From contig NZ_CP109583.1 of NCBI RefSeq assembly GCF_036250755.1, positions 5,417,501-5,481,500 of the forward strand: 64,000 nucleotides of DNA, read 5' to 3'. This DNA comes from Streptomyces uncialis. GTDB lineage: Bacteria > Actinomycetota > Actinomycetes > Streptomycetales > Streptomycetaceae. Positions 55,641 to 58,612 of this stretch are shown here, piece after piece. The position numbers were made by a program, and so were the translations under genes. The notes beneath the pieces are model-generated. The model made no database searches. It worked only from the letters and a program-made list of their open reading frames with translations, and was not told the origin of the DNA. Position 1 is the stretch's first letter, and each line of letters starts with the position of its first letter.

Positions 55641-55994
55641 GTGACACGAGCGTGGAAGGTCACGGTCATTGTGCTGGGGGCGGCGGGAGTGGTCTCCACG
55701 CCGTTGATCTGGCTGCTGGACGGCCCCGGCGCGGGACAGCTGGTCGGCGCCTCCGTGCAGGCCGGTGCCGGTGTGATGGCCCTGGTCTGGGCACTGTTCC
55801 AGCGGTCGGGGGACGGCCCGGACGACTCGGCGACCCGCACCGGGACGGCGGACGCGAGCGGCGGCGGGACGGCCGTCACGGGTATCCGGCGTCCGCAGGG
55901 CCGTGGCGGCAGAGCGGCGAAGGCGGAGGACACCGGGAACGCCACCGCGTCCGGCGCGGGCAGCAGCGCGGTCACCGGTATCGACTACACCTGA
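55641..55994 (+). CDS. Small membrane protein with Gly/Ala/Thr-rich repeat tail
   Basis: 117 residues from GTG, with GGAGCAGGGGGG upstream. Two hydrophobic helices (KVTVIVLGAAGVVSTPLIWL and LVGASVQAGAGVMALVWALF) make a short hairpin in the membrane. The cytoplasmic or outer tail holds two related repeats: TGTADASGGGTAVTGI and TGNATASGAGSSAVTGI, the second at the very C-terminus. Matching repeats occur in the first 80 residues of the next protein. The two genes are 23 bases apart. I propose a membrane partner or anchor for the STAND ATPase; no known family recognised. Confidence 0.75.
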   Translation: MTRAWKVTVIVLGAAGVVSTPLIWLLDGPGAGQLVGASVQAGAGVMALVWALFQRSGDGPDDSATRTGTADASGGGTAVTGIRRPQGRGGRAAKAEDTGNATASGAGSSAVTGIDYT

Positions 55995-56017
55995 GCGGCC
56001 TGCCGGGGGGAGCAGAT

Positions 56018-58612
56018 GTGAAGAGGGAACGACCGCGTGGCCCGGGCAGAAGCACTCGGCCTGACGCCTCCGCCGGTGCCCCGGAGGTCACGGTGTCCGG
56101 TACCGGCGAAGCCGTGGCGGCCTCCGGCAGTACGGCCGTGACCGGCTTTCGCGGCCCGGCACCGGGGACCGGACAGGCGCCCGGGGGTCCGGTGAGCGTG
56201 TCCGGTACCGGGGACGCGAACGCCACCGACGGCGGAGTCGCCAGCACCGGTCATATGCACATCGACACCTTGAACGTGGTTCAGCGCGCGCCCCAGGAAC
56301 CTGCTCCGTGGCCGCACCAGGTCGGTGTCATCCCGCTCCGGGCGCGCTCGTTCCAGCATCGTGGTGCGGTGGATCAGTTGGCCACGAGGATCGACGGTGG
56401 CGGTACGGCTGTGCTGTCCCAGGTCCTGACCGGTATGGGCGGGGTGGGGAAGACCCAGCTCGCCGCCGACTACGCCAGTACCGCGTGGGAGTACGGCGGT
56501 CTGGACGTGCTGGTGTGGGTCACCGCGAGTACCCGGGAGGCCGTCGTGGCCGGGTACGCGCAGGCCGGTGTCGAGCTGTGCCGGGCCGATCCGGGTGATC
56601 CGGAGCGGGCCGCGCGTTCCTTCCTGGCCTGGCTCACCCCCAAGGCCGGGACGCGGCCGTGCCGGTGGCTGATCGTCCTGGACGATGTCACCGACCCCGC
56701 CGACCTGCGCGGACTGTGGCCCCCGGCAGGCGGACACGGCCGCACTCTGATCACCACCCGCCGACGGGACGCCGCTCTCGCCGGGGACGGCCGCCGCCCT
56801 ATCCAGGTCGGCGTGTTCAGCAAGAGGGAAGCCCTCACCTACCTCACGACCTCCCTCGCCGCCCACGGCCGCACCGAGCCCGCCGACCAACTGGACGCCC
56901 TGGTCTGCGAGCTGGGACACCTTCCCCTGGCGCTCGCGCAGGCCGCCGCCTACCTCATCGACACCGGCGACACCGTGGCCACCTACCGGGAACTCCTCGC
57001 CGACCGCACCACCACCCTCACCGACACGGCTCCCGACGCCCTGCCCGACGACCAGGCCCTTCCCCTGGCAGCCGCCTGGTCCCTCTCCGTCGACCGCGCC
57101 GACACCCTGCGCCCCGTCGGCCTGGCCCGTCCCATGCTCCAACTGGTCGCCATGCTGGACGCGAACGGCATCCCCCACGACGTACTCACCAGCCCGCCGG
57201 TCCTGGCCCACCTCGCTACCCCGGACACCACCGGGCAAGGAGGCCCGGTATCCGTTCGGGACGCGGTCCACGCCCTGCGGGCCCTGCACCGGCTCAGCCT
57301 CCTCGACCACACCCCCGAAACCCCGCACCAGGCCGTCCGCGTCCACCAGCTCATCCAGCGCGCCACCTGCGACACCCTGACCGCCGAGCGGTTCGACCGC
57401 ATCGCACGCACCGCAGGTGACGCGCTCATCGCTGCCTGGCCCGCCATCGAACGCGACACCGGTTTCGCCCAGACCCTGCGTGCCAACGCCATCGCTCTCG
57501 CCGGCTGTGCCGAGGACGCCCTCCACCGGCCGGACGTGCACGCGGTGCTGTTCCGTACGGGCTACAGCTACGGATCGAACGGCCAGTTGGTCGCGGCTCG
57601 CGACCACTACCAGCACCTTGCCGGGACCATCCGCCACCACTTCGGCGCGGACCACCCCGCCGCATTCGGCGCCCGTAACGATTTCGCCTTCTGGCGAGGT
57701 CAGGCGGGGGACGCGGCCGGAGCGGCGGAGACCTTCGCCGAGTTGCTGGCCGATCACGTCCGGCTCTTTGGCCCGGTTCACCGGGGCACCCTCGCCATTC
57801 AGGGGAACCTCGCCCGGATGCGGGGGGAGGCGGGGGACGCGGCCGGAGCGGCGGCGGCCTTCGCCGATCTGCTGAAGCGCATGGTGCGTGTGCTGGGTGA
57901 AGATCACCCCGACACCTTCACCACCCGAAGCCACCTTGCCAGGATGCGCGGGGAGACGGGGGACGCGGCCGGAGCGGCGGAGGCCTTCGCCGCACTGCTG
58001 GCCGACCGGGTCCGGGTACTGGGTGAAGATCACCCCGCGACGGTCACCACCCGGAACAACCTCGCCGCTTGGCGAGGTCAGGCGGGGGGCGCGGCCGGGG
58101 CCGTGGATGCTTTCGCCGCGCTGCTGACCGACCGTGCCCGGGACTTGGGCGTAGACCACCCCGACACCCTCATCACCCAGGGGAACCTCGCCTCCATGCG
58201 GGGGGAGGCGGGGGACGCGGCCGGAGCGGCGGCGGCCTTCGCCGATCTGCTGAAGCGCATGGTGCGTGTGCTGGGTGAAGACCACCCCGACACCTTCACC
58301 ACCCGGAACAACCTTGCCGCTTGGCGCGGGCAGGCGGGAGACGTGGCCGGGGCCGTGGATGCTTTCGCCGGGTTACTGGCCGATCGTGTCCGGGTTCTTG
58401 GTGAAGATCACCCGGACACGCTCATCACCCGGGGGAACCTCGCCAGCATGCGCGGGCTGGCCGGGGACGCGGCCGGGGCCGCGCAAGCCCTCACCGACCT
58501 GCTGGAGCACATGACACGGGTGCTGAGCGAGAACCACCCGCATCTACGGACCGCCCGGGTCGGACTCGACTACTGGCGCGGCCAGGCCAAGAGGAACAAG
58601 CAGCGCCGATAG
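56018..58612 (+). CDS. STAND NTPase: NB-ARC domain with C-terminal tetratricopeptide repeats
   Basis: 864 residues from GTG, with GGGGGAG six bases upstream. Residues 1-90: Gly/Ala/Thr-rich repeats like those of the preceding membrane protein. NB-ARC: P-loop GMGGVGKTQLA (139-149), Walker B WLIVLDDV (217-224), sensor LITTRRRD, GLPL-type LGHLPLALAQAAAYL, and an ARC2-like winged helix to about residue 460. Residues ~510-855: seven to eight 42-residue TPR-like units (RGxAGDxAGAxxAF, VRVLGEDHPDTxTTR). Architecture equals NLR-type switches, where TPRs sense and ATP drives oligomerisation. No toxic effector domain is present; the N-terminal repeats may recruit one. Confidence 0.92.
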   Translation: MKRERPRGPGRSTRPDASAGAPEVTVSGTGEAVAASGSTAVTGFRGPAPGTGQAPGGPVSVSGTGDANATDGGVASTGHMHIDTLNVVQRAPQEPAPWPHQVGVIPLRARSFQHRGAVDQLATRIDGGGTAVLSQVLTGMGGVGKTQLAADYASTAWEYGGLDVLVWVTASTREAVVAGYAQAGVELCRADPGDPERAARSFLAWLTPKAGTRPCRWLIVLDDVTDPADLRGLWPPAGGHGRTLITTRRRDAALAGDGRRPIQVGVFSKREALTYLTTSLAAHGRTEPADQLDALVCELGHLPLALAQAAAYLIDTGDTVATYRELLADRTTTLTDTAPDALPDDQALPLAAAWSLSVDRADTLRPVGLARPMLQLVAMLDANGIPHDVLTSPPVLAHLATPDTTGQGGPVSVRDAVHALRALHRLSLLDHTPETPHQAVRVHQLIQRATCDTLTAERFDRIARTAGDALIAAWPAIERDTGFAQTLRANAIALAGCAEDALHRPDVHAVLFRTGYSYGSNGQLVAARDHYQHLAGTIRHHFGADHPAAFGARNDFAFWRGQAGDAAGAAETFAELLADHVRLFGPVHRGTLAIQGNLARMRGEAGDAAGAAAAFADLLKRMVRVLGEDHPDTFTTRSHLARMRGETGDAAGAAEAFAALLADRVRVLGEDHPATVTTRNNLAAWRGQAGGAAGAVDAFAALLTDRARDLGVDHPDTLITQGNLASMRGEAGDAAGAAAAFADLLKRMVRVLGEDHPDTFTTRNNLAAWRGQAGDVAGAVDAFAGLLADRVRVLGEDHPDTLITRGNLASMRGLAGDAAGAAQALTDLLEHMTRVLSENHPHLRTARVGLDYWRGQAKRNKQRR
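57818..58305. repeat. 126-bp coding repeats, with an almost exact duplication 378 bases apart
   Basis: The TPR-like units are also DNA repeats. The segments at about 57,818-57,927 and 58,196-58,305 are identical except for one T/C difference. The shift is 378 bases, exactly three 126-base units. This points to recent unit duplication or gene conversion. Confidence 0.88.

Follow-up and report, generated by a model that had tools for sequence, protein, structure and literature searches.

The described systems closest to the gene pair reported here are the BASS signalosomes, whose motif families BASS1-10 are reportedly those of Dyrka et al. 2020. The pair is located in a stretch of 64,000 nucleotides from Streptomyces uncialis (hereafter the window; assembly GCF_036250755.1, contig NZ_CP109583.1, positions 5,417,501 to 5,481,500 of the forward strand) and consists of a gene for a small membrane protein with two transmembrane segments (2-TM) followed by a gene for an ATPase resembling the NOD-like receptors (NLR), i.e., a signal transduction ATPase with numerous domains (STAND). 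According to a part of PMC7889193, BASS genes are adjacent, the motif is located at the effector C-terminus and at the NLR N-terminus, and many motif families exist, mainly in filamentous actinobacteria and cyanobacteria, with Bell, CHAT and TIR partners being named; these amyloid NLR signalosomes are also treated in parts of PMC8086366 and PMC12261475.

This kind of system, an NLR and an effector with a shared terminal motif in filamentous bacteria, is already described as BASS, and the concept is not new. Judged from its sequence, the window pair appears to be of this kind, the genes being adjacent and the motif being placed at the C-terminus of the candidate effector and at the N-terminus of the NLR; moreover, one relative of its NLR chassis (locus L075) harbors a motif pair closely like BASS3. 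Unlike the described effectors with an assigned Bell domain, the candidate effector is a short 2-TM hairpin without a Pfam match. Its repeat, referred to as the TG repeat, is present in two copies on both partners and is also found on NACHT and VMAP cores. Set by eye beside one BASS3 peptide, which was the only BASS peptide compared, the TG repeat shows no resemblance to it. The repeat is not named in the titles or abstract openings of the literature found, a search that left full texts and the defining BASS paper outside.

Two further systems are comparable. The effector tail of HET-s carries two pseudo-repeats (a part of PMC7889193), and VMAP/vWA-MoxR ternary systems use effector-associated domains (EADs), those described being helical or of the alpha+beta type (a part of PMC7159879). 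The window pair is similar to HET-s in the two repeats of the effector tail, with three strands predicted for each, in the NLR partner and in the membrane-acting effector here proposed. The rungs of HET-s have three strands as well. The window pair is different in that no sequence relation exists, the structural match of the predicted tail to 2RNM is not significant, the repeat is made of Ala, Gly and Thr, and a 2-TM effector takes the place of the HeLo domain. As with EADs, a core component and the effector next to it share one small module, as in locus L167, whose VMAP-C protein has an N-terminal TG repeat; unlike the EADs described, the TG repeat is short and predicted to be a beta-repeat. 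We read the window pair as a BASS-like NLR signalosome of two genes: stacking of the repeats would recruit the 2-TM effector and lead to membrane damage. We give this reading a probability of roughly 0.6.

The TG repeat on both partners

The two genes lie on the same strand (+), separated by 23 bases, and both open reading frames have the coordinates that a first-pass annotation, made from the sequence, had assigned to them (Table 1). The consensus of the repeat is T-G-x-A-x-A-x-x-G-x-A-x-T-G-[IFYH], and its copies are close to the C-terminus of the membrane protein and close to the N-terminus of the NLR; those quoted in the annotation agree letter for letter with the sequence (residues 67-82 and 98-114 of the effector, residues 29-44 and 64-79 of the NLR). 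The membrane protein had also been said to end in the repeats: both copies are in the tail, and the last one is followed by three further residues (DYT). Neither protein matches a family of PADLOC-DB 2.0.0 at E<=1.

A local alignment of the last 62 amino acids (aa) of the effector with the first 100 aa of the NLR gave a score of 81, reached by none of 5000 composition-preserving shuffles (mean 37.8, standard deviation 6.6, maximum 73), and windows of 100 aa taken elsewhere in this NLR scored at most 34 against the effector tail. At E < 1e-3, a motif profile (A3) of 18 repeats, three of them from the window, disclosed three sites in the genome of S. uncialis, all inside the two genes (best 150 of 711 candidates); a fourth match was judged by reading to be due to chance. 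Another profile, trained on 61 effector repeats and on no NLR repeats, gave 8 bits or more for 37/41 partner heads of the homologous pairs described below, for 3/820 shuffled heads, for 0/180 interior windows and for 0/39 heads of chassis relatives lacking the window effector; 29/41 heads exceed the best control, a shuffle with 14.7 bits. These 37 pairs carry the repeat on both partners; the other four heads (L096, L100, L112 and L116) score low and have looser repeats by eye. One of the controls, L053, has a TG head by eye, with a profile score of 4.5. The tail is rich in Gly, Ala and Thr, as might be expected if the likeness were a coincidence between low-complexity linkers of high-GC genes; such a coincidence is contradicted by the shuffles, the profile controls, the interior windows and the genome census, and was rejected as extremely improbable. 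Together with the cross-type scoring reported below, the profile controls and the census support the view that the repeat is a partner-specific, homotypic-looking module.

Homologues of the membrane protein numbered 112 among 282 candidates, and matches to its gene at E<=1e-3, some of them weak or tail-only, are present in at least 40 of 199 Streptomyces genomes. Scanning of genome contigs yielded 47 named loci (45 in Streptomyces and two in Streptantibioticus), 41 of which have a P-loop gene directly downstream of the effector gene; in all these 41 intact pairs the membrane gene is the upstream one. Among the six exceptions, L080, L085 and L090 have a broken partner that still starts with the TG repeat, L098 has no partner, and L124 and L125 are a degraded locus and a fragment, respectively. 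An NB-ARC match was obtained for 38/41 partners, the others being those of L096 (tetratricopeptide repeats, TPRs, with NTPase models below cut-off) and of L116 and L122 (weak AAA models only); partner lengths range from 538 to 1295 aa, some being cut by contig ends. In 121 Streptomyces genomes, 18 motif loci were found at E<=1e-3. Seventeen of them are adjacent pairs of a small and a large gene, some with weak or broken partner heads, so that the repeat is no common feature of unrelated Streptomyces proteins; the eighteenth, in genome G067, was read as a chance frame.

Among 296 genomes of the class, the motif was detected in 12 (E<=1e-3) and the effector profile in 11 (E<=1e-4), all 11 being within the 12 and the twelfth being G067; the two counts are not independent, because both profiles overlap in the tail. 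The matches are confined to four of the 114 genera sampled, and in one genome outside Streptomyces (G313) an effector of the window type is paired with an NB-ARC protein. Homologues are also present in 19 of 72,556 plasmid records, and no match was found in 50,697 phage records. Nine loci of the 19 plasmid records were read: eight have a TG tail and seven a TG-headed partner, L223 running into other sequence and the partner frame of L222 being broken or unread. Apparently tail-less plasmid homologues turned out to be an artefact of BLAST low-complexity masking.

The patchy occurrence, the plasmid carriage and a repetitive TPR array in the NLR suggest a role in defence. By the same mechanism, the pair might instead kill cells of filamentous actinomycetes during development or in kin recognition, an idea in keeping with the restriction to few genera and with the fungal counterparts, which act in allorecognition (a part of PMC7889193); we hold it to be rather unlikely, since the patchiness and the presence on plasmids look like accessory defence and not like a core developmental function.

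Some single loci may be added. The plasmid-borne TG pair L225 (NZ_CP109336.1) adjoins a gene annotated as Pycsar system effector family protein. At L006 (G128:C2) the effector is retained and a short partner frame is followed by an apparent transposase gene, and at L201 (G288:C1:6898000-6905500), likewise outside Streptomyces, a TG-tailed 2-TM gene is divergent from a TG-headed 1300-aa frame, unlike the other pairs read. As an exception, in L207 (G465:C1:5164500-5170500) a window-type effector stands beside a TG-headed, apparently membrane-bound protein of 276 aa without Pfam match; the next gene reads like one for a solute-binding protein, and no STAND gene was recognised in the locus. No empty insertion site of the window pair was defined: both flanking genes were found in four relatives among the 61 genomes searched, on separate contigs in three and more than 5 Mb apart in one.

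The two proteins

Table 1. Features of the gene pair, with positions in the window (pLDDT, predicted local distance difference test)
Feature	Position	Strand	Details
Candidate effector gene, 2-TM membrane protein with TG-repeat tail	55641..55994	+	117 aa, GTG start
Predicted helix 1, residues 3-22, hydrophobic	55647..55706	+	AlphaFold2, block pLDDT 53-66 (low)
Predicted helix 2, residues 31-53	55731..55799	+	AlphaFold2, block pLDDT 57-74
Predicted effector rung 1, residues 62-83, TG core 67-82	55824..55889	+	Strands 62-65, 70-73, 77-83; AlphaFold2 block pLDDT 86, 90, 78
Predicted effector rung 2, residues 93-115, TG core 98-114	55917..55985	+	Strands 93-96, 101-104, 109-115; AlphaFold2 block pLDDT 86, 91, 88
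GGGGGGAG, purine-rich, likely ribosome-binding site	56005..56012	+	5 bases upstream of the NLR GTG; sequence reading
NB-ARC/TPR STAND (NLR-like) gene	56018..58612	+	864 aa, GTG start
NLR head TG repeat 1, residues 29-44	56102..56149	+	Effector-trained profile 20.1 bits at 29-43
NLR head TG repeat 2, residues 64-79	56207..56254	+	Effector-trained profile 16.3 bits at 64-78
NB-ARC ATPase domain, residues 136-325	56423..56992	+	Pfam PF00931, 5.6e-11
DUF7779, residues 370-458	57125..57391	+	Pfam 28.4 bits, cut-off 27
TPR array	57694..58525	+	126-bp units, 6.6 copies; Pfam TPR_10, TPR_12

The membrane protein, for which Pfam, NCBIfam and PADLOC give no family at E<=1, contains two hydrophobic stretches (hydropathy maximum 2.08 at residues 7-25), with basic residues N-terminal to the first helix. 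In an alignment of 29 homologues (A1) 12 columns are invariant, nine of which belong to the helical half; Q40 is one of the invariant residues, and Q33 and Q54 are conserved in at least 90% of the rows. These three glutamines on helix 2 would fit an oligomerising polar face. For the tail, AlphaFold2 predicts twice three strands with block pLDDT 78-91, higher than that of the helices of the same protein; the core is polar and rich in Ala and Gly. The solenoid-like strand pattern agrees with the beta-solenoid that had been offered as one option for the repeat, and the beta fold of the tail is a predicted one. The best sequence match of the effector profile to a solved structure has an E of 0.78, so that no solved relative was found by sequence, and a fold search with the predicted tail gave no match beyond chance. 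The two effector repeats vary in length together (76 long/long, 31 short/short and no mixed cases in the 107 parsed of the 112 homologues), and the NLR repeats do not track this length.

The second protein had been described as an NB-ARC/TPR protein, and Pfam indeed matches NB-ARC, DUF7779 and TPRs. Its P-loop GMGGVGKT (residues 139-146) is made of residues conserved in alignments A2 and A4 and, with the C-terminal superstructure-forming repeats, places the protein among the STAND/NLR-like NTPases. The TPRs match those of kinesin light chain both by sequence and by fold, and the array has a higher-order period of 378 bp at 81% match, which suggests recent duplication or concerted evolution of this putative sensor. 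Its homologues carry the NCBIfam name FxSxx_TPR (NF040586, fxsT), whose cut-off of 300 bits is exceeded by the window NLR (355 bits), a likeness to the TPR protein of the FxSxx-COOH system; a paralogue in the same genome (C1:7627196-7629637) scores higher, with 586 bits. A search of the genome for an FxSxx-COOH peptide gene gave none, but its control was silent as well. An FxSxx-COOH function, considered because of the name, is unsupported, and the name fxsT on window-type NLRs is probably over-extended, reflecting the shared chassis only.

As had been claimed, the NLR is devoid of a conventional effector domain as far as Pfam and NCBIfam find, and this makes the membrane protein the natural effector candidate. 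The roles might also be reversed, the membrane protein sensing membrane stress or a phage protein, the repeat relaying the signal and the activity of the NLR being the output. Such an arrangement would suit the constant upstream position of the membrane gene in the intact named pairs and the crowding of invariant columns in the helical half; nevertheless, no effector domain was found on the NLR with these models, different small proteins occupy the membrane position at other loci, and the repetitive TPR array of the NLR and the variable partner length are as one would expect of a sensor, so that we consider it improbable.

Exchange of tails, effectors and cores

The chassis was searched with NLR residues 100-864, scoring the best five candidates per genome, and at E<=1e-30 it is present in at least 142 of 199 Streptomyces genomes, being far commoner than the membrane gene. 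Forty regions upstream of high-scoring chassis homologues without an adjoining membrane-gene match, one of them the own-genome paralogue, were then read. In 24/40 a coding tail gene of another type was recognised by eye; the choice of these genes by their position, coding bias and appearance may have favoured matching ones. L053 harbors a different 2-TM protein, and both partners of that locus carry TG repeats; the remaining 15/40 loci were left unused. In a domain scan of eight of these 15 relatives, NB-ARC is preceded by a TIR domain in one and by a trypsin domain in another, and the other six have no effector domain, with a helix-turn-helix that is weak in two and clear in one. The first-pass annotation had held that its idea would fail if ATPase homologues mostly lacked the membrane gene, and they do mostly lack it; however, given the other tail genes, the further TG pair and the two fused domains, the pattern favours the idea.

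Tails were scored against heads over 61 loci, i.e., the 24 of other types and 37 of the 41 TG pairs. Mean scores are 55.8 for cognate, 55.2 for same-type non-cognate and 30.0 for cross-type combinations, and for 58/61 tails the best head is of the same motif type. The commonest other type, with 16 helical proteins, has a weak match (38.6 vs 29.7, area under the curve 0.64). In L075 the motif pair is LRDARGVQVGDGNVQHNTF on the effector, whose Pfam RHIM match is below cut-off (E 0.18), and LPHARGVQFGHGNVQHNTY on the NLR, both closely like the BASS3 peptide VDLRDAKGVQVGDGNVQINRF. That peptide is reported to aggregate and to be amyloid-like by Fourier-transform infrared spectroscopy and Congo red staining (a part of PMC8086366). 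The other tail genes, the BASS3-like pair and the TIR and trypsin fusions show a chassis of modular build, one cassette of which includes the TG repeat.

Several chassis loci can be listed on their own account. The TIR and trypsin-like domains are N-terminal in L060 and L074, which do not have the repeat. On the same chassis, small upstream proteins share with their NLR a motif like RQxARGxGxITQxGGD (L056, L068 and L076), a motif like GGxAxGGDxxxxAxG (L065, L066 and L071) or, in L046, the motif GDxxDFRxSxxHGPVxGKGTxxN.

Alternatively, the repeats could form a finite beta-solenoid joint, a static link between the NLR and a membrane anchor, with no amyloid-like propagation and with a membrane protein that only positions the receptor. 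The compact two-unit beta structure predicted for the effector tail alone, its polar core and the indifference of the NLR repeats to effector repeat length are all compatible with such a scaffold, which we still judge unlikely, as the domains fused in two of the eight scanned relatives are of the effector type and not anchors, and another relative uses a BASS3-like motif pair in its place.

The TG repeat is also found on further effectors and cores, disclosed by genome searches and not by a tail-only protein search, whose 13 proteins of 37 candidates are all of the window effector family. A second 2-TM family with the repeat has among its partners a NACHT-HEAT protein (L165) and a VMAP-C protein (L167) and, outside Streptomyces, proteins with TPRs (L202) or with NB-ARC and TPRs (L204). 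A helical effector with a TG tail, which may be Bell-like, stands beside NB-ARC/TPR proteins in L173 and L176 and occurs in L171 as well. Read from the sequences, adjacency, repeat pairing and cassette swapping are evident, and the module appears as a swappable cassette, other effectors and NTPase cores using the TG repeat and the chassis using other tails or fused domains. As a tentative and rather doubtful extension, the TG repeat might serve actinomycetes as a portable adaptor, a beta-solenoid of two rungs that is distinct from the published BASS families and by which membrane effectors of different kinds (at least two families with 2-TM proteins and one helical) could be exchanged on otherwise unrelated NTPase immunity cores (NB-ARC/TPR, NACHT/HEAT and VMAP).

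In L167 (G058:C1:6968500-6975000), the TG-tailed 2-TM gene is upstream, and the VMAP-C gene is followed by an AAA_5 gene; no vWA component was identified in this locus, where a 660-aa frame is without Pfam match. Within about 12 kb, L171 and L172 (G108:C1:1881500-1898000) contain two TG pairs that differ in effector and core. A third effector, helical and TG-tailed, is found there too, and the region is possibly a cluster of such systems.

Proposed mechanism and meaning

In the two-gene signalosome that we favour, the NB-ARC/TPR protein would be autoinhibited at rest, its architecture pointing to the TPR array as the sensor. Upon activation, as expected from STAND biology, the NB-ARC domains would oligomerise and gather many head repeats, which might nucleate a beta-solenoid or amyloid-like stack. 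This stack would recruit the two-rung tails by homotypic contact, a step consistent with the sequence pairing and with the predicted fold of the effector tail. The recruited hairpins would have their tails in the cytoplasm, as the basic residues before helix 1 suggest, and, once gathered, might oligomerise and permeabilise or depolarise the membrane, with growth stop or cell death as the outcome.

The TG pair probably resembles fungal and animal cell-death signalling in that the activated receptor would gather the membrane protein, with a repeat that is unusual and is shuffled between different receptors and effectors. It would represent a compact bacterial model for testing templated NLR signalling, made of a small effector, whose tail is predicted to be a solenoid of two rungs, and a receptor with the same repeats. 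On one NLR chassis, fused TIR or trypsin domains are seen to give way to membrane effectors that would be recruited, and the natural motif swaps predict which partners should talk to each other. The pair also links amyloid-like motifs to EAD-type recruitment in VMAP systems; if the repeat is indeed a portable adaptor, amyloid-like signalling and EAD-type recruitment would form one continuum.

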